Positions 1-21,821 of a stretch of 24,585 nt of DNA are shown here, one piece after another. The DNA is from a virus. The position numbers and the translations under genes were made by a program. The notes below the pieces were generated by a model, which was given only the letters and a program-made list of their open reading frames with translations, searched no databases and had not been told where the DNA came from. The stretch lies in the IMG/VR virus record IMGVR_UViG_3300023435_000091, positions 1 to 24,585 of that record. One strand, given 5' to 3'. The stretch's first letter is position 1, and the number at the start of each line of letters is the position of its first letter.

Positions 1-1716
1 CGAATTCACGCAGAACGCACCCGCAGACGTCCCAACATCCGCGCAACCACCGACGCGAACAACACGCCATCCTCCAGATGGGGTCGTATCAAATGACGTG
101 TAGTAATAATCACACAAATATGTTGCTGAACTGCCACCGGAGACCGATGACGCCCATATACCAATGATATCTAAAAAATCGACCGCATACCCATCTGCCT
201 CACCTAAATTCCCTGCTAAAATGTAATTAGATGCTGTATTGGAGACATAATTTATATAGTCAGTACAGAGATACAGTTTCGACGAGGCGCCATCGTTATT
301 GATGTTGCAACCATCAGCCCATTTATAGACATTTCCATACCAATTTTCGACACCCCGGTAAGACATATAGGCGTCGTTTGTGTCTCCACCAGTATTCCCG
401 GTTATGTTGCCGTCTGGGTTTGATTTTCCGCACTGGCCAATATAGCTATCTGCTACCCACGTGCCACCAGTTAACGCAGTTCTACCGGCACCAATTTTGG
501 TTTGAGAATCAAAATCAGCGTATTCAGTTAGATAAAGCGCCTGCAACGCTGCATTAAGCGCATAATCGAACTGATGCCAGCCTGTGCCTCGCTCTTCAGC
601 CATCGCCCTAAATTCAACGATTGTTTCAGTCACCTTTGGATATTGAGCAGCATAAGAACAAAGTTTGTCACCGGCTGCATACAGAGACGTGACAATATCA
701 GCAGGGGCAACCATAACGCCGGCTGAAGCATCGTACATACTACCCTCGTAGGCACCGATATAGCGGTATTCTGATGGGGTAGCCGACCCGCCTTTATAAA
801 ATGCCGTATTAATAGCCGCCACAACAGTCTCGCCGGTCGATAAAATCATCCGAAATGGCCCTTGAGCAATCATAAAATATCTGTAATTGCCATCCTGGTG
901 TTGCAGAGAGTAGAATTGCGGAATCTCAACCATCACCTGACCGTCTGTGCCGCCAAGGTTAGCTGTGCAGATTTCAAACGTCTCCGCACTGTCCATTATA
1001 TCTGAGCCGATTGACAGTACATCATCACTGTCTTTGGCTGTGATTATAGCGTATGTGTCATCGGTTGTATTGTGGACATAATAGCCGACATAAACTGATG
1101 CAGCGCCGGTAAAGATACCAGCATCGCTTAATTTATCCGCCGTGCCGGTATCATCAGTGCCGGTCACAGAAGGAGCAACACCCGCTTTATTATAACTATC
1201 ATCATACTCAAGATAATACTGCACAACCCCTGCATCACTAAGCACACACCGCCGCATCTGATCCTGTATGGGATAATCAGTGTAAGTGACAGCCAGGAAC
1301 GTCCCGGCTTGATTTACTATAACGCCTTTTTCGTAAGTATCGTTACCGGCACCGGCCTTCCACCTGATTCCATATGCGGTTGTTGAAAATACCCCAGAAT
1401 ACACGCTCCACCCGTGCGCCCCATCTCCGACCAGTCGAGCGTCTGTATCTGTGCCTGAATCCGGCACAGTGCCAGATGGTGCAGTTTCCCAAGTTGCATC
1501 ACCGGCGGCATCGGAGGTGAGAACTTTGCTTGCTCCGGCCCCGGTGGTTAGTTTCACAGCCGCAGCACTTACGGACCCCGTAGTAGTTATCCCTGCCCCA
1601 CCCTTAGCCGGTGTTAAATCCCCACTCGAATCAATCCGCCACATAGAATGTAACCCACCGGCAGCGATCAAGAAAGCCGAAGCAAATAATATAAAAATCC
1701 ATCCAAATTTCTTCAT
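1..1716 (-). CDS. Tail or receptor-binding protein with DGR-type C-type lectin C terminus (3' partial)
   Basis: Reading frame of 572 codons, open without a stop to the left edge, so the C terminus is missing. Start ATG at 1716 is preceded by AAGGAGA. Residues 1-21 form a hydrophobic signal-like stretch. Residues 46-75 resemble the collar motif of phage fibres (KLTTGAGASKVLTSDAAG). Landmarks further on are MVEIPQFY (262-269), YIGAYEG (319-325), YRGVENWYGN (453-462), GGSSAT (527-532), CDYYY (535-539) and GGWRV (548-552). The frame then ends VGGCADVGTSAGAFCVNS (555-572). This order is that of the formylglycine-enzyme/C-type-lectin fold of DGR target proteins, and the last segment lies where their variable repeat lies. 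The likely role is adhesion to a changing receptor. The fold call is by recognised motifs only. A fixed, non-diversified lectin-type tail protein is the alternative. Confidence 0.85.
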   Translation of the reverse strand, partial: MKKFGWIFILFASAFLIAAGGLHSMWRIDSSGDLTPAKGGAGITTTGSVSAAAVKLTTGAGASKVLTSDAAGDATWETAPSGTVPDSGTDTDARLVGDGAHGWSVYSGVFSTTAYGIRWKAGAGNDTYEKGVIVNQAGTFLAVTYTDYPIQDQMRRCVLSDAGVVQYYLEYDDSYNKAGVAPSVTGTDDTGTADKLSDAGIFTGAASVYVGYYVHNTTDDTYAIITAKDSDDVLSIGSDIMDSAETFEICTANLGGTDGQVMVEIPQFYSLQHQDGNYRYFMIAQGPFRMILSTGETVVAAINTAFYKGGSATPSEYRYIGAYEGSMYDASAGVMVAPADIVTSLYAAGDKLCSYAAQYPKVTETIVEFRAMAEERGTGWHQFDYALNAALQALYLTEYADFDSQTKIGAGRTALTGGTWVADSYIGQCGKSNPDGNITGNTGGDTNDAYMSYRGVENWYGNVYKWADGCNINNDGASSKLYLCTDYINYVSNTASNYILAGNLGEADGYAVDFLDIIGIWASSVSGGSSATYLCDYYYTSFDTTPSGGWRVVRVGGCADVGTSAGAFCVNS

Positions 1717-1726
1717 AACGTTCTCC

Positions 1727-2134
1727 TTATTGAAAATGCAGTATAATCGTTCCGGTGCCACCGCTCCCGGCGCTTGCAATGACGGGCGTTAATGCCCCTG
1801 TAATGATACGGCTGCCGTATGAACCCCCCGCTAAAGGCCATGCCGATTCGGTAGCAGATGTTGACCTGGCGCCCAAGGTTCCGAACAAGTCTTCACTTTC
1901 AGCGTCATTCACGACTATTGTGTAAGCGGTTGTCGTACCAGGCTCGGTCTGCATCATAAGCAGTTCACGCCCGGTAATAGCCTTTGTTATCGTTTCGCTA
2001 CAAAACGTGCCATTGTCAGTGCTTATACCGGAAACGGCTCCGTCCGTGTGAGCAGTCCAGACCATTGTAAGCTCCAATGTTTCCTTGCCGTTTTTGTAAA
2101 TCGGTTTTAATGTTTGAGTTATTGCTGCGGCCAT
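1727..2134 (-). CDS. Small phage structural-type protein, function unknown
   Basis: A 135-residue protein starting at ATG 2134 behind GGAG. It has no cysteine pair, signal peptide or catalytic motif that I can recognise. The composition is rich in Thr, Ser, Gly and Ala with alternating hydrophobic residues, as in beta-rich virion proteins. The C terminus is glycine-rich and hydrophobic (SAGSGGTGTIILHFQ). It sits between the lipoprotein gene and the lectin-type gene, 10 bp from the latter, in the same transcription unit. A baseplate or fibre accessory, or a chaperone for its neighbour, is possible, but this rests on position only. Confidence 0.6.
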   Translation of the reverse strand: MAAAITQTLKPIYKNGKETLELTMVWTAHTDGAVSGISTDNGTFCSETITKAITGRELLMMQTEPGTTTAYTIVVNDAESEDLFGTLGARSTSATESAWPLAGGSYGSRIITGALTPVIASAGSGGTGTIILHFQ

Positions 2135-2147
2135 GATTAATTCTCCT

Positions 2148-2639
2148 TTACCACGTTATTGTTAAGAGGTTATATACCGCCAAGGCATTATATATTTGCC
2201 ATTCCAAGGCCGCATTACCACCATGTTTCTTGATATTATACAAATCGCCGTCCCCGCTATGTCGTAATGGGCAAGTGAGTGTTTCGATAGCAGACAATAT
2301 TTTAAACCCCTTTGAGAAGTTGGAACTATCTAAAAACAAACCAACAACATTTTGTGTTAGTAATCCAGCCCTGTTTATCCACCTGTGATCTGACTCTGAT
2401 AAATTCCCACTATATTCTACACTCAACCCATGCAATGAATAGTCAGCGCCTACAATTTCGCAAGTTACCATATGGGCGCCTTCATGCACGGCCAAAGATG
2501 CCACCGCCCCTACAACCATGTATCCAGCGTCTTTAGGCGTCATGTTTTTAAACGAGTCCACCGGCGAACCGGCTATGAACGTTTTGCAACCAGTGGTTAA
2601 TAAAAAAATCGATATAATTAACAACATTTTTATTTTCAT
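2148..2639 (-). CDS. Predicted lipoprotein with HEXXH (HEGAH) metalloprotease-like motif
   Basis: A 163-residue protein. The N terminus is a lipoprotein signal: basic MKIK, hydrophobic LLIISIFLL, then TTGC with Cys18 as the expected lipidated residue. A hydrophobic helix (about 38-51) runs straight into HEGAH (52-56), matching the zinc-peptidase HEXXH signature. Further on are an RAGLLTQN segment and a hydrophobic C terminus. The helix-HEXXH plus AG..xxN arrangement recalls M50-type membrane peptidases, but the similarity is short and I cannot name a third zinc ligand. The start codon overlaps the preceding stop as TAATG, so translation is probably coupled. A surface-modifying or superinfection-exclusion role is inference. 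Lipoprotein call firm, protease activity uncertain. Confidence 0.7.
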   Translation of the reverse strand: MKIKMLLIISIFLLTTGCKTFIAGSPVDSFKNMTPKDAGYMVVGAVASLAVHEGAHMVTCEIVGADYSLHGLSVEYSGNLSESDHRWINRAGLLTQNVVGLFLDSSNFSKGFKILSAIETLTCPLRHSGDGDLYNIKKHGGNAALEWQIYNALAVYNLLTITW

Positions 2640-3679
2640 TAGGTTCTCCTAAATTCAGCAATTGTAAAAACGCTATTCATGCCGGATGAGATAGCGCCAG
2701 CACCAAAACCAAAAAGAGCGCTTGTTAATGTGCAATAATGCTGAATTTCAAAGGTTTTTTGAGCTGCTATTGTAAATGTACCAATAATTAATGAGTATGT
2801 AACATTGTTATTTTTGCTATATCCAGATGTGCCTAAGATAGTTTCAGATGTATCTGATATATTATATAGCCTAGCCACATGCATCTCAACGTCATAGGTA
2901 GGGCAAGCAATAAAACAAGTATATGTTCCAGCCGCTAAAGTTATTTGGTTTGATGATATTGAACAAATTCCGCCTGTGTCTGAATCCTCTGTGTTTATAT
3001 CTCTTGTTCGCCACGCATCTTGCGTAAACGTCCCGCCTCCAGCGTCTTCAGCTTTAACATCACTGACCTTAACATATTGCTCAAGTTTTGCTTTTATATT
3101 CGCAGGTGTTGTTGCTCTGTCTGTTGCCGTTCCGGTGATTGTTTCGGTATCGGTGGCAAGCTCGACCGTACCACTAACAGTTGTGGAAGCTGCAGCGACT
3201 TGCACGAACCATGCCCTGCTGTCTGTGGAAACAGTCTGAGCGCCCGCTAATGTAGTAATTGTTCTGATAGGTATTCTTCCAGCGGTAAAGGCAGTGGTGT
3301 TTTTGGTGACAGTCCCGGCCTGTGTAATTTCAACATAATTTGTGGAAGCATCGGTTAAGCCAATGGTTCCGGCGGCAATTGTCGTTACGGTATTGTCTAC
3401 CCGAATTTTGCCGGTCTTGTATCCCCATGTCAAGCCGGTTGTGGTCGCTGAGTTTTCATCGAATATTTCGGCAAGGGTTCTGGTCGATGCCGTGTCGCTG
3501 TATATTTCAGCTAATGCGTCCTCAACATTATCAGCGGCCATATTCCCGGCTGAATCATAAACACCTACCTGAGACGCACCACTGCCGCTATCCGTTGCTA
3601 AAAGGGCGTCTATGAAGGTGTTTACCCGCGTAAAACAGGTTTTAATTGACTCGGTAAGGGTCAGTTTTGTAAAGGCCAT
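2639..3679 (-). CDS. Tail fibre-like protein
   Basis: A 346-residue protein with a modular fibre layout. The N-terminal part contains VGVYDSAGNMAADNVEDAL, common in fibre or spike anchors. A short repeat-like segment at about 168-193 (SGTVELATDTETITGTATDR) resembles the VELAT repeats of lambdoid tail fibres. The C-terminal domain (about 222-346) is beta-rich and runs from a TFTQDAWRTRDINT entry through LAAGTYTCFIACP to EIQHYC. This pattern recurs at the ends of many phage fibre proteins and resembles a jelly-roll (C1q-like) head. The start is ATG 3679, overlapping the stop of the 59-residue gene upstream (TAATG). It probably forms a trimeric virion appendage, and receptor contact by the C-terminal domain is inference. 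Confidence 0.75.
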   Translation of the reverse strand: MAFTKLTLTESIKTCFTRVNTFIDALLATDSGSGASQVGVYDSAGNMAADNVEDALAEIYSDTASTRTLAEIFDENSATTTGLTWGYKTGKIRVDNTVTTIAAGTIGLTDASTNYVEITQAGTVTKNTTAFTAGRIPIRTITTLAGAQTVSTDSRAWFVQVAAASTTVSGTVELATDTETITGTATDRATTPANIKAKLEQYVKVSDVKAEDAGGGTFTQDAWRTRDINTEDSDTGGICSISSNQITLAAGTYTCFIACPTYDVEMHVARLYNISDTSETILGTSGYSKNNNVTYSLIIGTFTIAAQKTFEIQHYCTLTSALFGFGAGAISSGMNSVFTIAEFRRT

Positions 3680-3858: not shown

Positions 3859-6287
3859 TCTGTAACCCCGTCATAGCCTTTTTTTATTGTATACGCGCCC
3901 ATTGTCAGCAGATATTTTTTAAATTTGTTTTGTGCAGCTTTTCCAGCATATGGTTTTGACGCGTCCATAATAATTTGCGCTGCTGAAGGACTATAAATAG
4001 CTTCTGTGAGCAATCTATTAATTTGTTCCTCTGAGAATTTTCTTGGCGCTCCTGTTATGGCTTTCCAGATATTTTTTATCGCACCGAACATAAAGCCTTT
4101 GCCCTTTTGAATAGCAACCAATTGACCTATATTCCGGGCTATCGTATTTGTAGTTTCTCTCCTTGCGCCGAATGCTTTTTCAACTGTTGCAGACCCACCG
4201 GCATATGTGACGTTTTTGTTTCGTCCCAAAACTCGCAATATATTATGATAGTCTTGCAATGCCTTTATTTTGCCAGATTCTTTAGCATATAAAACTCTCA
4301 TTGCTGGCATGTGGTCCTCTAATATCTTACCAAGCGCTGCCATGCTCTGCACCGGATTACCTAAAACATCAACACCGCTTGTTTCGGCTGTTTTTAGCAA
4401 ATAATCTTTAAATGCATTCTTGATTCCTGCAACTGCCGCCGGGTTATCTTTTACCCCAGGCAATTTCAATAAATCGTTTGCCATTTTAGCGCTTTGCATT
4501 TTGCCCTTTCCGCTAAAAATACTTTTCATCACATCACCAACATCTGTACCAATAATTTTAGACGCAACTGTTTTTTCATACTCTGCAAGTCCAGCAACCG
4601 CAGTATCAGCCACTTTTTTTGATCTAATAATGTTTTGAAATTTATCTGTCAGTCCGTATTTGTCCAGCACGTCCTTGTTGGCTTTGAACCATTTAATAGC
4701 CCGCCCAGTATTAACTTCACCGTTATCTGTTGCCCTTGAAAGAAAATCTTTACCGGCATAATCGTCAATCAACGTACCGGCTTTTTCTTTGCCTACTGTT
4801 CGAACAAGATCATCTGCTGCATCCATTTTGCCGGTTCTGAAAAATCGACTCGGGATATCGGAATAGGCAACTTTCCCCCCGGTGCTTTCCCGGCCTGATG
4901 CCAAAACATCCCCGACTGTGCCCTTTCTATACTTTTTGATATACCCTTTGAACTGGTCGGATGCTTTTTTATATAGTTCAACTGTTTGGGCGTGTTCAGG
5001 AGCAAGCGTCCGCATTTGCTCCATTGCTTCATCAACGCCTTTTTCCAACATGCTTAACCGTCGAACCAATTTTAGATTTGGGTTTAATTTGCTGTATTCG
5101 TCTCTGATTTCAGTTGTAATTTGTGAGCGCCAATCCCGTAAATTATCGAACGTTACAGACTTGCCTTCTGTTTCTTTTACCGCCGCCTTAATTTGTTTTA
5201 CGATAGCAGAAGGATAGCTCCCAGGACCGCCACCTATTTTTTTAAAATCAGCGGTAACCCCTACCACTGTTTTATTAACAGGATTTGCAGACAAAACAGT
5301 TCCTTTGGGAATTTCCGCATACAGTGCATCAATTTGTCCTTTTTCTATTTTCCGACCTGATTCCAATGACTCCTTTATAACCCGCCCAATGTCCTGTTGA
5401 CGTTGACCTAATGCTAAAGGTGCCACCGTTTCTTCTGCCGCACCAACAGCCTTTGATGCACCTTTTTCAAGGCCAGTTTTATGTTTTGCTACACCGGCAA
5501 CAATTTCCCCTGCATCTTCTTTTCCTGGGAATTGTTTTTGAATAGCGGTCATCATTTCGCTGTTAATTTCAGCATCCTGCCCTTTTAAAATATTTGCTAG
5601 CTCTGCATCTTTTGCCGCCATGCTTTGCTCGAAACTTGCCGCTTTTGGTGATCCTGTTTTTTGAGCAAAGGTAGGTTGTGTTTTAATCCCGGTTCGTCTT
5701 AAAATAGCCTCTGTTTCTTTGCCAGTCTGGGTTGATATTTTAGACGGTTCGCGCACCTGTTCCAAGGCTTCTTTGGCTTTTAGCAACATTCCCCGGTCAC
5801 TCATTGACGGGAACATGCCTTTAATTTTCTTGAAAAGCCCGGTAAACCCCATTTTGTTTGCCAACTTCCATATACCATGCCCTGTGCCTACAACTGTTTT
5901 ACCTACAATACCCCCGGCCATTTCCATTTCGGCACCTGATTTAATATCTTCTGCCGCCTTTATAGAACTTTCTTTTAAATCCATTTTATCGGCAAGGCCC
6001 AAAAATTCATCAAGCCGGTCGGCTATATTTGACCCGATACTATATGTTAACCCAGCCCCACCAACCCCCCCAACCGGGCCGCCCGCCGCTGTGCCAGCAA
6101 TCGCTCCGCCCACTAAACCACCCATCTCAAGTGCTGGCCGGTATACGTTCGAAGCGGCCTGCCTAACGGGTCGGTTTTGCTGCCACGACATTTCGCCAGA
6201 CGGTGCCTGTAATCTATCAGGACTTATTTCAATACCGCCTATGGCGTTTGGATCTTCTATTAACCTATCTAATGAAATTTCTCCCAT
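3855..6287 (-). CDS. Large internal virion (DNA ejection) protein, putative
   Basis: An 810-residue protein starting at ATG 6287 behind AAGAGGA. Residues 56-86 are a Gly/Ala-rich hydrophobic stretch (GGLVGGAIAGTAAGGPVGG) able to insert into or cross a membrane. The rest is mostly charged, Lys/Glu/Ala-rich and predicted helical, with no enzyme motif I recognise. Length, helical bias and a membrane-active glycine-rich segment fit ejection proteins of short-tailed phages, which leave the capsid ahead of the DNA and form a conduit in the host envelope. It is the last of three consecutive genes of this type, downstream of the tail protein gene, as in P22- and T7-type genomes. I see no lytic transglycosylase signature. 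The call is by context and composition. Confidence 0.65.
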   Translation of the reverse strand: MGEISLDRLIEDPNAIGGIEISPDRLQAPSGEMSWQQNRPVRQAASNVYRPALEMGGLVGGAIAGTAAGGPVGGVGGAGLTYSIGSNIADRLDEFLGLADKMDLKESSIKAAEDIKSGAEMEMAGGIVGKTVVGTGHGIWKLANKMGFTGLFKKIKGMFPSMSDRGMLLKAKEALEQVREPSKISTQTGKETEAILRRTGIKTQPTFAQKTGSPKAASFEQSMAAKDAELANILKGQDAEINSEMMTAIQKQFPGKEDAGEIVAGVAKHKTGLEKGASKAVGAAEETVAPLALGQRQQDIGRVIKESLESGRKIEKGQIDALYAEIPKGTVLSANPVNKTVVGVTADFKKIGGGPGSYPSAIVKQIKAAVKETEGKSVTFDNLRDWRSQITTEIRDEYSKLNPNLKLVRRLSMLEKGVDEAMEQMRTLAPEHAQTVELYKKASDQFKGYIKKYRKGTVGDVLASGRESTGGKVAYSDIPSRFFRTGKMDAADDLVRTVGKEKAGTLIDDYAGKDFLSRATDNGEVNTGRAIKWFKANKDVLDKYGLTDKFQNIIRSKKVADTAVAGLAEYEKTVASKIIGTDVGDVMKSIFSGKGKMQSAKMANDLLKLPGVKDNPAAVAGIKNAFKDYLLKTAETSGVDVLGNPVQSMAALGKILEDHMPAMRVLYAKESGKIKALQDYHNILRVLGRNKNVTYAGGSATVEKAFGARRETTNTIARNIGQLVAIQKGKGFMFGAIKNIWKAITGAPRKFSEEQINRLLTEAIYSPSAAQIIMDASKPYAGKAAQNKFKKYLLTMGAYTIKKGYDGVTE

Positions 6288-9251: not shown

Positions 9252-10784
9252 TTAAACAATGTCTATTTTTGATCTTATATCGTAATTAAGATCGCCTTGA
9301 TAATAAGTAAAATTCTGTGCGACAGTATTGTGCCGCCATTTTATTGCAATCGTTTTTCCGCTAACCCCGAACAGCCGAATCTTTTTACGCTTCGTTCCGG
9401 TCCCTGCCCAGCCGGTTACGACTTCAGACGTGAGCGCCGTATAATTCCCGGACGTTCTGACCTGTGCATCGTCCATTAAATCAAGCGAATAATACGGAAT
9501 CATGGTAAGCGCCGCCTCGGAAGGAACGATAAAGCTTTCTATTGTTTGAAATTGTTTTCTAAACGTGTGGGCGATATTAATTTCATTGGTGTTCCCGGCA
9601 ATAACTGAGGTAAAATACCTGTCAATGGCAGTCCCGTTATCGTTTTCACCCGTATCAAGCTGGTAAACATACCCGGTATTATCCCCATAATAAATGTCAG
9701 TCGTTTCACCGTTCAGAACTCCGCCGAAACAATTTGCCGTAAGCCCGCCCATTGGGTAAAAAGCGTACCGGCCTGTCTCTTGTTTGAACTTATATGATAG
9801 AACGAATACAAAATGAGTTGCAGCGCCGGTGGGAATGCTTACCCAAATCTGCTGTTCCTTTTTATAATGGAAGAATTGCGTATATTGGATGTAATCCGGG
9901 TCAGCAATAGAAGCCAAGTAATCCTTAAAATGAGGAATAATAGAGGCAGTTTCAATATCCCCAAACTCTTGAATACCCGATAGCCTCTTAATATCCGTAC
10001 CGTCCAGAAAGATAACATCGTTGCCTACCTGAGTTATGGCCCATTGAGACGTGAAGCCTACTGAATCTGCGGATTTTGTGTAAACTGGTTTGATATAAAG
10101 TGAATCTCCGCTTACATCTGTTGTCGGGGCGCCACCTAATTTATATAAGGCGTTTCGTTTGCCGATTAACAGAATATCGAAAAACCCGAATATACCTGTT
10201 ATTGGATCTCCGGAATCACCAATAACTTGCTCAACTGCGCCATCAGCAGTACCGCTTCCGGTATAATCTGTAGGATCAAGTAAGGCTGAACCTGTTATTT
10301 TGGCAACATCCGTAGAATCTCCACCAAACCAAACCCTGTGCGCCCATTCTGCAACAGAATTTCCTTTGGGTGGACTTCCGGCCAAATCACCAACGTGTGA
10401 AGCATCTGTCCAATATTGCGGATTATTAGCACCCTCGTTTACCCCAATGGCTTTACCTGCGAAGTTTACCCATTGAAACATTTTATTGGATGTCAACCCG
10501 GTAATCCTGTCCACGAACTCCCCTGTGGCAGACGAATAAACCCCGACTTTGGTTGAGTACGATACTAACGAATTGGCAGTCGACCCGCTTCTAAACTCGT
10601 GAAAAGAGGTGATCCGTGAAGCCAGGGAGGTGTTATTCAACTTCACGGACCCCTTTCGACCCGTGGGTCTACCGGACGAATCGGGCATAATATTCTGAGC
10701 ATCCGCCAAAGCTTCCGGAGGTAGCAGAAACGGCGGTATAGAATAATCAACACCTAATCTTGATTGCCCGAACGTATTATTCAT
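9252..10784 (-). CDS. Tail hub/stabilisation protein, P22 gp10-like
   Basis: The preferred start is ATG 10784, giving 510 residues, with GAG at a suitable distance. A GTG at 10790 would add two residues. The protein opens MNNTFGQSRLGVDYSIPPFLLPPEALADAQN, a pattern typical of short-tail proteins that close the portal-adaptor channel. Repeated beta-strand units with Trp, Phe and Gly (QWVNFAGKAIGVNEGANNPQYW, HRVWFGG) follow, consistent with a beta-propeller hub as in P22 gp10. It overlaps the adaptor gene by 8 bp and precedes the ejection-protein block. The same position is held by gp10 in P22 (and nozzle gp12 in T7). The assignment is by pattern and gene order. Confidence 0.7.
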   Translation of the reverse strand: MNNTFGQSRLGVDYSIPPFLLPPEALADAQNIMPDSSGRPTGRKGSVKLNNTSLASRITSFHEFRSGSTANSLVSYSTKVGVYSSATGEFVDRITGLTSNKMFQWVNFAGKAIGVNEGANNPQYWTDASHVGDLAGSPPKGNSVAEWAHRVWFGGDSTDVAKITGSALLDPTDYTGSGTADGAVEQVIGDSGDPITGIFGFFDILLIGKRNALYKLGGAPTTDVSGDSLYIKPVYTKSADSVGFTSQWAITQVGNDVIFLDGTDIKRLSGIQEFGDIETASIIPHFKDYLASIADPDYIQYTQFFHYKKEQQIWVSIPTGAATHFVFVLSYKFKQETGRYAFYPMGGLTANCFGGVLNGETTDIYYGDNTGYVYQLDTGENDNGTAIDRYFTSVIAGNTNEINIAHTFRKQFQTIESFIVPSEAALTMIPYYSLDLMDDAQVRTSGNYTALTSEVVTGWAGTGTKRKKIRLFGVSGKTIAIKWRHNTVAQNFTYYQGDLNYDIRSKIDIV

Positions 10785-11655
10785 AATCACTCTTTTTCAT
10801 TATTACAGGCGTTGTGTATCTTTTCGGCACCATGTCCATGTCCATTTTAGTCAATGACTCAATAGCCTGTTCATACTTTCTTTCGAGCATGCCTATCTTA
10901 GGATCATTGGCCGCGAACAGTTCCAGTGCCCCGAAATAAGCCCCGCCACGTTCAAGGACGTACTCAAGCCGACTCCATACCGCGTCCACTGATCCGGATA
11001 AAGCAGATGGATAGGCAAGATAGAGAAGGCTCCCGATATAAGCTGCATCCGGGGAAGGATCGATCCTGAACACATGGCGGGCGTTTGTTTCGTCATACTC
11101 AAGACAAAATGTAGTCGGTTTTCCTGTCGGGTAATATAAATAATCAATATAATAATCAGTGGCGTCACTCATGGAACCGGTCGAATCAACAGTGATTGAA
11201 GCAGTCGTGTAATCCATGGTGTAATCGGTATCGCGGGTATAAGTTGTCGTACCGGCAACGGTCGTGACAACCTCGCTGTATTGAACCATCGTGGTGTTAT
11301 CTAAGGTAACGGCAACATCTGAATCCGCTGTAAACGATTCGTCTTCAATCTCGTTGGAAGTCAAGTCCCGGTGGAAGTCTTCCGGGGGAACCTGGTCAAT
11401 AATTTCTGAATTGGTTTCGTCCTTCAAGACCAGAAAACCGGAAAAATCTGTCGGGGCCTGGTAGGTTGCCTGCCCGGACGTCATCGTGAATAAACTTTTG
11501 GTGCGAAGGTACTTGAACTGATAGGGCCGGTTCATTACATCACGATATGCCGAGTTTGCCCATCTGAGCGCATACACAAGCATGGTCGCGTCGGCTACCA
11601 GGGCGCCCTCCCCAACGGCAAAAATAATGTTAGATTTTATTGTAGCAGTTGTCAT
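10777..11655 (-). CDS. Tail adaptor (portal-proximal neck) protein
   Basis: A 292-residue protein from ATG 11655. The helical N terminus contains LRWANSAYRDVMNRPYQFKYLRT, and GQATYQAPTDFSG lies nearby. This combination is characteristic of adaptor or tail-tubular A proteins, which bind the portal ring (T7 gp11 or P22 gp4 role). The C terminus is again helical (LERGGAYFGALELFAANDP). It precedes the gp10-like gene and overlaps it. The 5' end is unusual: an HNH endonuclease gene abuts it and the first codons are repeated at the endonuclease start. Its present Shine-Dalgarno GGGAG therefore lies inside the inserted cassette. Confidence 0.7.
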   Translation of the reverse strand: MTTATIKSNIIFAVGEGALVADATMLVYALRWANSAYRDVMNRPYQFKYLRTKSLFTMTSGQATYQAPTDFSGFLVLKDETNSEIIDQVPPEDFHRDLTSNEIEDESFTADSDVAVTLDNTTMVQYSEVVTTVAGTTTYTRDTDYTMDYTTASITVDSTGSMSDATDYYIDYLYYPTGKPTTFCLEYDETNARHVFRIDPSPDAAYIGSLLYLAYPSALSGSVDAVWSRLEYVLERGGAYFGALELFAANDPKIGMLERKYEQAIESLTKMDMDMVPKRYTTPVIMKKSDYE

Positions 11656-12364
11656 TTGAACTCCCCAATTTTAACATTGGCTGAAATGGGCGGTTAAGAT
11701 TATTGTGTTTAGACATATTGTCTTTTGCCCACAATGGTTGAAGATTTGACAGCGCCCAACATCTTTTAAAATCTTCATGCTCAGGCTTGCTAAAATTAAA
11801 AACAGATTTAGGTATTTTGTGGTCTATGTGCCATTTGCCGTAATTGCCCCAAGTCATTCCTGGTTTAAAAAGTTTTTTCAAATGCACTTTTAATTCTTCA
11901 ACAGTGTATCCGACCAAATCACACCAATGGCTGTTACCCTTAGCCCGGAATAATGCCTGTCTAATACTTGCTGACATAGCATCGCTTATCCTATACGAAG
12001 CAGATAACCTTCTTTTCGCGTCATACTCCCTGCATTTATCAAGATTGTTTCTCCGCCATTTTTTAGCAACCGTTTTATTTTCTGGTTTATTATGGCTTTT
12101 TCGTTGTATCTCTGAATATCTTTCCGGATTATTAGCCCGCCAGTTAGCCATATATAGGCGTCTTTTTTCTGGATTGTTTTTTGCCCATTTAGCCGCATAA
12201 ATATTCAGTTTCTTTTTTTTATCTTCCGCTGTTGTTCGACGGTACAACCCCATGCATTTAGAATTGCAAAAATGGTGCTTATTATGCTTTATATGATAAG
12301 GTATCCGGTATAATGTTTTGCCGCAATAATCACACGGGATAGCCGTTCTGTTAGCAGTTGTCAT
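11630..12364 (-). CDS. HNH homing endonuclease
   Basis: A 244-residue protein. N-terminal zinc-binding cysteines are C11-x2-C14 and C33-x3-C37. Residues 55-115 carry repeats of the form W-x-x-N-N-P-E-K/R that probably bind DNA. The nuclease core reads TWGNYGKWHIDHKIPKS (171-187) with His179, Asp181 and His182, followed by LSNLQPLWAKDN (205-216), which supplies the late Asn. The family makes site-specific breaks that spread its own gene. Start ATG 12364 lies one base after the stop of the previous gene. The last ten codons extend into the adaptor gene. The first 13 bases of the frame are identical to those of the adaptor. The coding region looks more AT-rich than its neighbours, as expected for a mobile insertion. 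Confidence 0.9.
   Translation of the reverse strand: MTTANRTAIPCDYCGKTLYRIPYHIKHNKHHFCNSKCMGLYRRTTAEDKKKKLNIYAAKWAKNNPEKRRLYMANWRANNPERYSEIQRKSHNKPENKTVAKKWRRNNLDKCREYDAKRRLSASYRISDAMSASIRQALFRAKGNSHWCDLVGYTVEELKVHLKKLFKPGMTWGNYGKWHIDHKIPKSVFNFSKPEHEDFKRCWALSNLQPLWAKDNMSKHNNLNRPFQPMLKLGSSNDNCYNKI
11643..11657. repeat. 15-bp direct repeat, downstream copy (adaptor gene start)
   Basis: On the minus strand AAATGACAACTGCTA, containing the adaptor start codon. The identical sequence is at 12352-12366, across the HNH endonuclease start. The copies are 709 bp apart and bracket the endonuclease cassette. Identity ends one base before the coding sequences diverge (C here, A at the other copy). Confidence 0.85.
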
Positions 12365-17058: not shown

Positions 17059-18970
17059 TCGCCCTTTCTCTAACCGCCTTCTCTTTCCCGGTCATGGGAA
17101 TACCCTGTTCATTTGACGGCCCGTTCATTTGTTTAGTGATTTGCTGAACGTCCCCGCCTAAAGTTCCGGATTCGTAATGGTCTTCATCTAACATCCCGAC
17201 CATTTCTTTTTCGCCCCTATTTCTGAAAATGTTTTGCATTAATTTGTTTTGAATCTTTGGAACGCCCGGATTCTGAATACTCCCGACTACCTGAAGCAGT
17301 TGAATGTCCTGTTGAATCTCAGCGTCTTTTTGTTCGTCAAGTTTTACAGAAGACGCCGCCGGCACATATTGATACACTTCCTCCCAATCGCCGGGATTCC
17401 ATTCTTTACCAAGTATCCATTTAAAGGTAAGCGGGTGTGCGAATTTCTTTGCAAATGCAATATCCATCTGGGCAGACGGAATGAGAGCAGTTTTTTCAAC
17501 CATCCTCAAAACAAAATCCAGCTTCCCGGCTGACATCTGAGCGTTCATTACGTTTGTGGTGGCGGTTTTTTCCCGGCCAAGCCCCTGAATGGCGTTTGAA
17601 ACTGAAGTCTGTTGAAGCTCGCTGTCTAAAAGCGCGTGTTTCTGCCATGCGTCCTTGGTGACATAGGACGGCGCTTTGAACTCTATGGCCTCCCTCGGAT
17701 TACCACCGACAAGCCATTTCTGGCCGGGGGCGTGAACCATTGTATCCCAATCCCAGAGAGCGAATTTATTAACAATGGTAGGCGGCATAAGATTTTGCCA
17801 GATTTCGTCGAATGTCGCATTGATATTATCATTTATGGCCGTCACAATATCCTTGATGGGTTCAACAACACCGGTTGAGTGCCACCGTTCCGAATCAAAA
17901 TAAATGTGCATATCGATATAATTAATCCCGTCATAGGGATTGGTATCGAACCGTACCAAATGGTGGGTGGCCCCGACTCGCGCAACAGTAACGATCATAT
18001 CTTTTGTCTGGGGTTTGTCTTCCTCGATGTCCTCCTGATGCACATAGGGAACCAATTTACCGTCAACTTTATGGACAGTGTATTTCCCGATCCGTTCAAA
18101 CAATTCAACATCAGTGTAAATATCGGATTTAGGGGGTTCTGCCTGACCGTCTTTTGATTTTGCGTCAGCGTGGTCTTCAGCATATTTAGTGGCGGCAATC
18201 GCAGAAACGGTGCGATCTATGGCGTCCAGGTTCAGGTAATTGATTTTAGACCCAAGCATATCGTCAAGGTCTGTCAATGTCCGGTGGATGACAAACCGGC
18301 CCTCACGAATACTCTGCCCCGGTTTCAGCGCCCAATCATACACAATGTCTTTATTATTAATGATTTCGTTTTGAGGCCAATCAGCAACAGGAATACTTTT
18401 GGTGACTTTTCGCGTGACCGGACGGCTTTCGGTAATGTTTCCTTCTTCATCCGTCTCATAAGGCACATCCTCGGTAACCGGTTGGACAGAGCGTTTAAGT
18501 CTTTGGTGCCAGGTTTTTTTATTTATGCCGACACCGTTAAGAATTGCCCGGAGCAGCCACATCACCATTGTCAAAAAATAGTCGGTGCGTTCCTGGCCGA
18601 TAGTGCCCTGCATGGTATTCCAGAACTCGAGTATTTCCTCACGCTCAAAAGCACCGTCTTTGTCGAATGATTTTATACCTATTATAGGAGTAGCTGAAAA
18701 TATCTTGTTGGTAAGGTAAGGGATGACCGTCCAGACAACCTGAAAAACTTTATTGATAACAACGTTCGATTGCCAATCATAATTTCGCTCAGGCCGTTCC
18801 CCCCGGATCATACTGTAGATAGAATCGAACATATCGTTTAAATCTGAATTATATTGGTAACCCTTCGTCCACTCATCCATAACCTGCTGACAAAGCTCTG
18901 TCTCCCATTCGGGTACGGCATCTTCCGGGGTTTTCTCAGTTTTGGCTTCGTTGTCGTGGTGTTTATTCAT
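17051..18970 (-). CDS. Portal protein
   Basis: A 639-residue protein, in the size range of portals of short-tailed phages. The N-terminal helices surround WQSNVVINKVFQVVWTVIPYLTNKIF (about 66-91), a typical portal entry. YDGINYIDMHIYFDSERWHSTGVVEPIKDI and TAINDNINATFDEI give the wing-to-stem region. A polar, Gln-rich C terminus could form the crown. The portal forms the twelve-subunit ring at one capsid vertex through which the terminase drives DNA. It follows the terminase genes in the usual order. The start overlaps the preceding 74-residue gene by four bases (ATGA). I see no truncation or inserted domain. Confidence 0.85.
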   Translation of the reverse strand: MNKHHDNEAKTEKTPEDAVPEWETELCQQVMDEWTKGYQYNSDLNDMFDSIYSMIRGERPERNYDWQSNVVINKVFQVVWTVIPYLTNKIFSATPIIGIKSFDKDGAFEREEILEFWNTMQGTIGQERTDYFLTMVMWLLRAILNGVGINKKTWHQRLKRSVQPVTEDVPYETDEEGNITESRPVTRKVTKSIPVADWPQNEIINNKDIVYDWALKPGQSIREGRFVIHRTLTDLDDMLGSKINYLNLDAIDRTVSAIAATKYAEDHADAKSKDGQAEPPKSDIYTDVELFERIGKYTVHKVDGKLVPYVHQEDIEEDKPQTKDMIVTVARVGATHHLVRFDTNPYDGINYIDMHIYFDSERWHSTGVVEPIKDIVTAINDNINATFDEIWQNLMPPTIVNKFALWDWDTMVHAPGQKWLVGGNPREAIEFKAPSYVTKDAWQKHALLDSELQQTSVSNAIQGLGREKTATTNVMNAQMSAGKLDFVLRMVEKTALIPSAQMDIAFAKKFAHPLTFKWILGKEWNPGDWEEVYQYVPAASSVKLDEQKDAEIQQDIQLLQVVGSIQNPGVPKIQNKLMQNIFRNRGEKEMVGMLDEDHYESGTLGGDVQQITKQMNGPSNEQGIPMTGKEKAVRERAND

Positions 18971-19191
18971 ATAAGCCCCCGCTGTAGTTCCCGGTACAGG
19001 TAATGCGCCCGGTCTTCTGAAAAGTCGCAGTGGCCCATGAAAAAATAGATGATTTTGTGGGGTTCGGATTTAAGCCAGCCATACAGCATTTCCTTTACGT
19101 CATCATTTATTCGCGGTATGCCCTGCCCGAATGTTCGCTCCCAACCGTCTCTTGATTGGGTATTGCTCGGGGGGGTTCTAATAGTTTCCAT
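18967..19191 (-). CDS. Small 74-residue protein between terminase and portal
   Basis: Starts at ATG 19191 behind AGGAAG and ends in an ATGA overlap with the portal start. It carries an aromatic stretch HKIIYFFMGHCDFSEDRAHYLYRELQ near the end, with no membrane signal or cysteine pair. Position and coupling are the evidence for a real gene. It may help terminase-portal assembly; no family was recognised. Confidence 0.6.
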   Translation of the reverse strand: METIRTPPSNTQSRDGWERTFGQGIPRINDDVKEMLYGWLKSEPHKIIYFFMGHCDFSEDRAHYLYRELQRGLI

Positions 19192-19238: not shown

Positions 19239-21821
19239 TTATCGACCTGTCACGCTTCTTCTCCTAACCCCCTGTAATGGCGGCCTGTTTTTCATAAAAT
19301 GTGATGCGTTTTGAACTCTGGAATCTTTAAATAGCGCTTCGAGCACACAACAATCATGGCTGTTTTTCTGCATCGGCACATTCTTAGGATCATTGACCGC
19401 CCTGGTCGTGCTGGTCACATATTCCCCGTATCGCCAGTTCATAATCGAATGATGAAACTTTGGGGCCGTGTCGCAGATCCAGAGTGTCGGCAGGTACGAA
19501 ACTCTCCCAGCTTCGCGTACCTTATTATTAAAGGGCTTTCCGCACCGCACCGCATTCTTGAATCTCAAAGACACATTATCCCGCCCGGTCGTGCCCTTCG
19601 TGTTCCAGCCCTCCCAAAAACATTGGGCACCAATACCAGACGTTCGCCGCATTTCGTGAAAGTGCCGGTTCATGTCGTCGGTTGTCGAAAACCCGCTGTT
19701 GGCCTGTTTCTTGTTCGCCAGAGCATCGATCAAATTCACGGTGTAAATAAATTCCTGGCTATTTCGAGCAATGGTTTTGCAAATATCGTAGGTGTTATAT
19801 GCGTTCGGCCCGTCAATCGCCGGGTGAAACTCCTGCCACAAAAAAGCCTCATTGGTGGGGGATAGCGCCATCCATCCAACAGACCATGGGGTCCTAGACT
19901 CGTGGTAATCTATCCCCCGGCAATGAAACCACTCGTAGGGAATGCCGTCAGGAAAATACCGGGTAAACGGGATAAAACAATATTTTGGGTTGTAGGTTTT
20001 GTGAATCCGACCGGAAGCCTGCCGGAACGTCCCGTATATTCTTAAATCCACCTGAACAGGGTCGGCGCATTTATCAATCATTCGCTGAATTGCATCTTCG
20101 CTCAGGGTCGGATTGTCATAGGTGGACATGATGATGCAGGCTATATCAGTGTTCCCCTTGAGCCGCTTCTCGACCCGTTCCTCCCCGGTGTGGGCAATGA
20201 CCTTCTTGGTTCGGTAAACGTAGGATGCGGGAACAAACACCTCATCATAGACGTAAGAGTTCCCTGAAATAGAAACACACCCATTGCGCCTTACAACAGT
20301 CGTTTTATTCGAAGTAGTAGGGCACCATACAAAGCCATTATACGGTATGCTCTTTACGTTTAGTGATTTTATGTGCGTGTTTTTACGGAAACGAGATGAA
20401 TCAGAATAGACATGAGCCTTGTTAAAAAGTATGTCTCTGGTTTTATCATACCACTCTGAACGACTAGCCAGCTTCCCCAATAAAGTTGCTATCAACTGAA
20501 AATTGTCCATCAATTTCGGATTCTCAACCTGTGCGATCCTGATACTACCACCATTGCCGCGATTGCCATCACCATCTATAATCGCATTATAGAGAATTTT
20601 TAATTGCCGCTTTGATAATGAACAAATAAATTCTTGTGATAAAGATTTCTTATACCCAGTAACTTCAACAAAACTCAGCATTCTTTTTCTATCTTCACCA
20701 CGAAAACTCCACCGCCTGCATATACCATTTTTTGTAACTTCTCTTCCATTAATAATCCTATCCGGGTATGGGTGATCTGTAACTTTTACATTAAAATCAG
20801 CAGCCAGTACGTCAATATCATTGCATTTTTTACCATTAGCAGTTAATGATTGAGTAATAACAACAGATTGTCTTGCTACCGACCCATCGGTAACTAACCA
20901 CCCAAGCAAAGCTATCAGTTCATCACTATATTCTTCGTTATCATCGCCTAATACGGTGTGTTCAATCCGTTTAATGATGTGTTTTGAATTTAAATTTTTG
21001 GTTTCTTCAAGATACCACTTAGCCTGATTACGAGTATTAGAAACAAGCCATTTATGGTTCGGTGTTACAGCAGCATCAAACGATTTATGCCAAAGATGTG
21101 TTAGATTTCCTTTATATTTGTAAACATGGAATCCCTCAAGTTTCTTCCATTCCATGTAACCCATTTTGTTATGGGTCATTATTTCATCAGACATCAGGAT
21201 TTCATCATAAAACTTCCAACCACGATTAGTTAATAATTCTGTCTCTTCATCAAAACAATAGGGGTTCGTAGTCGTTATGCTGAAAATTTCGTCACCGTCC
21301 TCCTGCATGAGCCTTGCCGCGCACTCTGTCCTCTTATCGTCGGGGGTTTCCTCGTCGTGCCACAAAGATGAAAGGTTGATTTTCCCCAGGTCCTGCATTT
21401 CCTGCTTGGACGATCTGAACTCAAACACGGTCTTTTTACTGCTTAAACCAACAGGCCGCCGCACAACCAGATTAGCCGACCTTGCCGTAACATCCTTAAT
21501 TATCATCTCAGACGGTATCAGCCGCCGCAGCTCAATATATTGCGCGTTATCCGTCACGTCCGGGTCGTTGGACTCCGGTAAACTCGAACTCATGCACCGG
21601 ACTTTCCCCATTAATTTGTTCTTGTACGGTACGCTCGCTTTCCCAATCAGCCGGTCAACGTAATGCTTGGCTACGCTGGCGGTTTTTCCGGAACGATTGC
21701 CGGCAAATAAAGCAATACACCGGTGGGGCAGTTTATCCAAAACCTGATACTGCTCGGTCTTTGCAAACGATATCCAGTTGGCCCAGGAATTTAAAGCCTG
21801 TATGGTTTCTTGGGTTGGCAA
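19239..21821 (-). CDS. terL: Terminase large subunit containing a LAGLIDADG intein
   Basis: An 860-codon frame; 527 residues remain after removal of the 333-residue intein, a normal TerL size. ATPase half: Walker A GNRSGKT (41-47), Walker B around LWHDEE (153-158) and coupling motif TTTNP (183-187). The nuclease half after the intein has likely metal ligands in GIDYHE, NLIDALAN and NSHDC. The protein pumps DNA through the portal and cuts concatemers. The intein lies after Tyr188, within the ATPase domain, so activity should need splicing. The start is TTG 21821 because no ATG or GTG lies in frame before the first stop upstream. The stop of the metallopeptidase-like gene is one base away, so coupling is likely. 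The reading frame is intact. Confidence 0.95.
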   Translation of the reverse strand: MPTQETIQALNSWANWISFAKTEQYQVLDKLPHRCIALFAGNRSGKTASVAKHYVDRLIGKASVPYKNKLMGKVRCMSSSLPESNDPDVTDNAQYIELRRLIPSEMIIKDVTARSANLVVRRPVGLSSKKTVFEFRSSKQEMQDLGKINLSSLWHDEETPDDKRTECAARLMQEDGDEIFSITTTNPYCFDEETELLTNRGWKFYDEILMSDEIMTHNKMGYMEWKKLEGFHVYKYKGNLTHLWHKSFDAAVTPNHKWLVSNTRNQAKWYLEETKNLNSKHIIKRIEHTVLGDDNEEYSDELIALLGWLVTDGSVARQSVVITQSLTANGKKCNDIDVLAADFNVKVTDHPYPDRIINGREVTKNGICRRWSFRGEDRKRMLSFVEVTGYKKSLSQEFICSLSKRQLKILYNAIIDGDGNRGNGGSIRIAQVENPKLMDNFQLIATLLGKLASRSEWYDKTRDILFNKAHVYSDSSRFRKNTHIKSLNVKSIPYNGFVWCPTTSNKTTVVRRNGCVSISGNSYVYDEVFVPASYVYRTKKVIAHTGEERVEKRLKGNTDIACIIMSTYDNPTLSEDAIQRMIDKCADPVQVDLRIYGTFRQASGRIHKTYNPKYCFIPFTRYFPDGIPYEWFHCRGIDYHESRTPWSVGWMALSPTNEAFLWQEFHPAIDGPNAYNTYDICKTIARNSQEFIYTVNLIDALANKKQANSGFSTTDDMNRHFHEMRRTSGIGAQCFWEGWNTKGTTGRDNVSLRFKNAVRCGKPFNNKVREAGRVSYLPTLWICDTAPKFHHSIMNWRYGEYVTSTTRAVNDPKNVPMQKNSHDCCVLEALFKDSRVQNASHFMKNRPPLQGVRRRSVTGR
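20259..21257 (-). mobile_element. Intein with LAGLIDADG homing endonuclease, in terL
   Basis: Residues 189-521 of the terminase frame. Block A begins at Cys189 (CFDEETELLTNRGWK). Block B has TPNH (253-256). The two LAGLIDADG-type helices are LIALLGWLVTDGS (302-314) and LKILYNAIIDGDG (407-419). The C-terminal blocks read VWCPTTSNKTTVVRRNG (498-514) and end SISGN, with the +1 residue Ser522. The penultimate residue is Gly in place of the usual His, a variant known in some terminase inteins. Splicing would join TTTNPY to SYVYDE. The coding sequence appears more AT-rich than the flanking terminase halves. Both splice-junction residues and both endonuclease motifs are present, so it looks functional. 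Confidence 0.92.

Follow-up and report, generated by a model that had tools for sequence, protein, structure and literature searches.

Adenine-specific variation in a phage tail protein gene that is very probably the target of a diversity-generating retroelement

In the diversity-generating retroelement (DGR) of the Bordetella phage BPP-1 (mtd-avd-TR-brt), the variable region (VR) lies at the 3' terminus of the gene for a tail receptor-binding protein with a C-type-lectin fold, the template repeat (TR) is found downstream, the reverse transcriptase (RT) gene comes after the TR, and mutagenesis affects adenines only. The system described here shares these features, with the TR and the RT seen in a near-identical relative, and differs in that an Avd homologue was not found in the records searched, the lectin domain is formylglycine-enzyme-like (FGE-like) and of the TaqVP type, the target starts with a putative signal peptide, and a gene of a family that we call family A adjoins the RT. 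TaqVP, the DGR variable protein of Thermus aquaticus (5vf4), has the closest solved fold and was the sole sequence-profile match (E=0.005); its identity to the target studied here is about 14%, and this target is found in a tailed-phage tail module. The phrog_5302 tail proteins, which include DGR targets of environmental and gut phages, are also close. All of the aligned target-family members (52/52) match phrog_5302, and predicted structures of tail collar fibre proteins are the nearest among the viral ones, but N-termini of this type of target are mostly tail-type, while our target and a subset of its relatives start with a putative signal peptide. Finally, the surface-displayed DGR targets of cells, such as the lipoproteins of Treponema and Legionella (PMC4891356, PMC8144416), share an N-terminal export signal, which is putative here, and a C-terminal variable C-type lectin; those targets are bacterial, whereas the gene studied here belongs to a phage that also encodes portal, capsid, and tail proteins. 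As a system, the DGR is of a known kind. Less ordinary are the subset of targets with putative signal peptides, a target part that was probably swapped between phages, and family A with its link to the RT.

The window, i.e., the whole stretch of DNA that was analyzed, comprises 24,585 bases and is a fragment of an IMG/VR viral record; the DGR finding is read on its minus strand. No match was obtained by megablast of the window against the INPHARED phages, and searches for whole-genome relatives with portal and capsid queries returned one short record and none, respectively. The tailed-phage genes on the minus strand include those for a portal (SU10_portal, E=2.9e-10) and a major capsid protein (Phage_capsid_4, E=1.1e-11), both called by profile matches, and the target gene is the last one in this row. 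It starts at position 1716, its frame runs off the left edge of the window, and its product matches the phrog_5302 tail protein profile (E=2.7e-61) within the tail gene cluster. As a phrog_24210 tail fibre gene lies close upstream, the target sits at the end of the tail module. The reference for the features below is the record IMGVR_UViG_3300025642_000015 (33,571 bases, hereafter L002), which contains a complete target gene and provided the TR for the test of the window.

1–1716, minus strand: DGR target gene for a tail protein; 572 visible codons of an open frame that the left contig end truncates within the VR
1–68, minus strand: visible part of the VR; 11 of 15 template adenines changed, and no other base, compared with the L002 TR
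1–948, minus strand: predicted C-terminal C-type-lectin-like (FGE-like) variable domain, C terminus incomplete, based on the model of the L002 homologue
55–57, 43–45, 37–39, 34–36, 25–27, 22–24 (silent), 10–12, and 1–3, minus strand: eight diversified codons, from the L002 TR codon table
50–1578, minus strand: gene body identical to L002 (1,529 nt, 0 differences); elsewhere the two records are unrelated
1579–1716, minus strand: N-terminal part differing from L002, with an in-frame junction just before GSVSAAAVKLTTGAG
1651–1716, minus strand: putative Sec signal peptide MKKFGWIFILFASAFLIAAGG, called with our own heuristic
1727–2134, minus strand: small gene (135 aa) immediately upstream of the target, without a signal peptide
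2639–3679, minus strand: tail fibre protein (phrog_24210 tail fiber, E=7.2e-20)

An earlier note on this DNA had proposed that the frame ends like a DGR-diversified lectin, with the motifs YRGVENWYGN, GGSSAT, CDYYY, GGWRV, and GG-x4-G-x2-AGAF-x-VN in this order. This was confirmed on the minus strand of 1–1716, with the frame open at the contig edge, and the alignment with the L002 TR bore out its claim that the gene is cut inside the VR. We conclude that 1–1716 very probably encodes a tail protein for receptor binding in a tailed phage with a DGR, in which a TR-templated, adenine-misreading RT diversifies the VR.

The comparison with the L002 template carries this conclusion. All 11 mismatches between the window VR and the L002 TR are at TR adenines, of which there are 15 among the 68 positions (P=8.9e-10). 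In the order of the codons listed above, the changes from TR to VR are CAC>CGC, AAC>TGC, AAT>GAT, AAT>GTT, AAT>TCT, GCA>GCG (silent), TAC>TGC, and ACG>TCG. Five of the seven codons that had been singled out as variable-looking were therefore correct (TGC, GAT, GTT, TCT, and TGC), while the other two, GCG and ACG, are the same as in the template; the changed codons CGC and TCG had been overlooked, and one GCG that was called fixed is GCA in the template. Compared with the L002 gene itself, the window shows 0 differences over the 1,529 nt of 50–1578 and 11 at 1–49, 10 of which are at TR adenines. The two records provide a clear natural demonstration of DGR action: over 1.5 kb the gene is identical, and it changes only at sites where an adenine in the template allows this. 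The template translates as R V V H V G G N A N N G T N A G A F Y V N T N N T S S N A N T N I, and with this AAY-rich layout adenine changes can reach most amino acids. An EcoRI site at 2–7 of the window was considered as a cloning junction and rejected, as the VR codon change AAT ACG > AAT TCG accounts for it.

Neither a TR/VR pair nor an RT was found within the window, as expected from a cut inside the VR. Both had been predicted just left of position 1, to be sought within about 3 kb, and both are present just past the equivalent of the cut in the near-identical L002, within 1.5 kb: the VR is at 9650–9771, the TR at 9802–9923 (152 nt after the VR), and the RT ORF at 10032–11102. The L002 RT matches RVT_1 (E=1.3e-13) and phrog_1423 (E=1.4e-105). 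It contains IGNYLSQ and YCDD, and the DGR RT motifs were found in L002 and four aligned relatives; (I/V/L)GxxxSQ is, with YxDD, the recognition motif of DGR RTs (PMC3521204). The L002 TR differs from its own VR at 25 adenines and 1 other base. One more record, L120, from another metagenome, was found by a TR search and carries the same TR and RT. It starts in the last VR bases and is then mismatch-free compared with the L002 record over 4,355 and 3,912 nt; its VR allele differs (TCTGTC versus AATCTC, with AATATC in the TR), and only at template adenines.

The same pattern was observed throughout the family. Five loci (L045, L046, L048, L049, and L059) have identical TRs and identical 1-kb gene bodies, but their VRs differ at 13–20 sites, mostly at template adenines. 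Over 53 distinct family VRs, TR adenines were changed at 1167 of 1703 positions, compared with 45 of 4392 for the other bases, and the TR was downstream of the target in 53/53 cases. The codons concerned are not invariant across relatives but vary at template adenines. The same TR/VR test was positive in 0 of 128 random stretches, which, together with the placement of all the window mismatches on TR adenines, excludes chance.

Anatomy and sequence variation together indicate adenine-specific mutagenic retrohoming as in BPP-1. In the proposed mechanism, the TR would lie just downstream of the target, to the left of position 1 and past the cut. An error-prone RT would copy it, misreading template adenines, and the mutated cDNA would replace the 3'-terminal VR of the target gene. 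The outcome would be a C-type-lectin-fold surface that varies between virions. We infer that such a cassette adjoins the cut in the phage of the window and is active there. It could differ from the one in L002, the sole near-identical relative, whose genome is otherwise unrelated to the window. It should also be noted that not every homologue need be active, since some (e.g., L054 and L074) lack an RT in the DNA examined.

The fold was modeled on the complete L002 homologue. The AlphaFold2 model of its C-terminal domain, built with 52 family members, reached a pLDDT of 88.2 and a pTM of 0.88; an earlier model from 16 full-length rows (pLDDT 47) was set aside. The best PDB match of the model was TaqVP (5vf4, E=4.1e-10), followed by PvdO and then by the Mtd variants of BPP-1, and the nearest predicted viral structures were tail collar fibre proteins. 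A search of the PDB by sequence with P0001 gave no match. The variable residues are predicted to lie on this C-type-lectin fold, and the variable face would, judging from the tail position of the protein and by analogy with BPP-1, bind the host receptor.

An avd gene had also been expected nearby. This did not hold, as the Avd profile PF22296 matched 0 of 20 records, while the BPP-1 positive control was matched. The known DGR accessory proteins named in the literature consulted are Avd, HRDC, and MSL (PMC10053308). Here, family A (about 100 aa), an undescribed family linked to the RT, is present at 37 of 97 RT loci; it follows the RT, in nearly all 37 loci no more than 370 bases from where the RT ends, and often overlaps the RT stop. 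Its only likeness is a weak match to phrog_19665, of unknown function. From its position, family A is a candidate for the missing accessory factor. At one locus (L112:1409–1705), the family A gene does not come after the RT but separates the target from the TR, as avd does in BPP-1. Family B is a small partner family encoded after the target or the RT. Neither family matched anything in Pfam, NCBIfam, or the PDB; a single family B member gave weak Arc and HeH matches, which we did not regard as credible.

The N-terminus of the target was less expected. According to Benler et al. (PMC6199706), phage DGR proteins lack signal peptides, and according to Roux et al. (PMC8144416), signals are mainly a feature of cellular DGR targets. 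In contrast to the statement of Benler et al., the targets of the window (MKKFGWIFILFASAFLIAAGG) and L002 (MKKIFLFIMMLVPLFILPGAFA) both have a start that resembles a Sec signal, as do 24 of 83 relatives according to our own simple heuristic, with hydropathy scores that are split by a clear gap. The signal label changes at least 5–7 times on the tree. The signal may be real, and the target and its partners may be exported by the host Sec system, either as a receptor-binding module that matures in the envelope or periplasm or as a lectin displayed on the infected cell. We consider this reading to be just short of an even prospect; it concerns the use of the protein and leaves its status as a DGR target unaffected.

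Several observations are consistent with export. Signal-bearing loci are found in real phage contigs, beside genes for a terminase (L069), a portal-type protein (L075), or major head proteins (L084, L067, and L065). ORFs that flank signal-bearing targets carry signals more often (29/108) than those near other targets (21/308). Family B proteins have a signal in 6 of 11 loci with a signal-bearing target and in 0 of 44 others, and in the family B alignment the L121 and L084 proteins correspond to the L074 protein with about 22 additional N-terminal residues. The cleanest case is L121, a contig from a deltaproteobacterial MAG, in which the small upstream protein, the target, and the partner all carry signals, with VR, TR, RT, and family A in place. 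However, the signal calls come from our heuristic rather than from SignalP, and signal-less homologues are annotated as tail proteins. The correlation between target and partner signals stems from few events: strictly independent ones gave 4 versus 0 pairs, which is in the right direction but not significant (p=0.125), and L041, L043, and L054 break the pairing with a signal on the target only. In addition, the small gene upstream of the window target lacks a signal; L002 has a 147-aa gene with a signal peptide at the same place, but the likeness of the two is by position only, with no detectable sequence similarity. Given the independent-pairs result and the broken pairings, export is a lead and not a result.

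A broader proposal is more tentative still: a subset of tailed phages might export the DGR lectin, the small upstream protein, and the partner by means of Sec signals, for a tip built or loaded in the envelope or for display on the infected cell, with the RT-linked family of about 100 aa in the place of Avd. If export occurs, either the completion of tail tips can take place beyond the cytoplasm or hypervariable lectins serve phages on the cells that they infect, and both outcomes would change the understanding of phage receptor-binding proteins. The wider comparison makes the signal-peptide point testable: putative signals occur in a considerable share of a single family of phage targets and in neighboring tail-module proteins.

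The identity to L002 raises a separate question, as no other window protein matched the L002 record at E<1e-3. A target body common to otherwise unrelated phages implies either a recent exchange of the target part or that one of the records is chimeric. The latter would mean that the target gene of the L002 phage was joined during assembly to the tail module of another phage in the window record. The absence of any difference over 1,529 nt next to proteins without a match would fit such a chimera, as would the facts that the junction of the window was observed in a single record and that the body pattern matches the L002 record alone. Against this, the join is in frame and at an equivalent place, after the signal peptide in both the window and L002, and the junction has a conserved linker, which also offers a natural site for recombination. 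Moreover, L045, L048, and L059 share a nearly perfect target C-terminus, TR, and RT, with unrelated target N-termini and upstream DNA, and the L048 junction was found again in three assemblies. As this arrangement was seen independently in these loci, we lean toward a natural exchange of the target part for the window and regard the chimera as unlikely; horizontal movement of DGRs as such is already known (PMC3521204). That the target is an ordinary, non-diversified lectin-like tail protein with an incidental VR resemblance could draw on the lack of a TR and an RT in the window, but this extremely improbable reading is refuted by the adenine-only pattern, as every mismatch is at an adenine of a TR present in two other records, the variation is limited to the VR, and the family is DGR-associated throughout.

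Several minor observations concern the family of the target. Three family records break inside the VR: the window at position 1, L120 at its start, and L057 (= L005) at 6145. Since such breaks are expected when several VR alleles coexist in a sample, contig ends in a VR may flag active DGRs. L051 (6144–6475) matches L048 with 99.7% identity as far as the TR start (L048 6150) and then jumps to sequence past the RT; it is either an RT-less variant or a contig-end artefact. The sole difference between the L002 record and L120 is a replaced stretch (L025, record position 18409–19101, versus L120 4359–4621), which carries a 143-aa HNH-type gene in the L002 record and likely reflects the presence or absence of a homing endonuclease. 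One phage contig encodes two adjacent phrog_5302 paralogues, both with a signal peptide (L075:2774–4453 and L075:4854–6548). With the L002 target alone as the query, an initial genome scan gave no match. In the L002 phage, a 3,089-aa protein (L024:2481–11750) is encoded directly upstream of the small signal-peptide gene.

Other genes on the minus strand of the window were also noted. Just upstream of the DGR target neighborhood, a 163-aa protein (2148–2639) contains LLTTGC as a lipoprotein-type signal and HEGAH as an HExxH-like motif. A free-standing HNH-type endonuclease-like gene of 244 aa (11630–12364), called from sequence only, lies within the structural gene cluster. An 860-aa terminase-like protein (19239–21821) contains an apparent, putative intein at about residues 183–530, which starts at CFDEETELLTNRGW and ends near VSISGNS. 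Thymidylate synthase is a common intein host, and part of the apparent intein stretch matches the thymidylate synthase phrog_85 (PHROG, E=1.8e-8).
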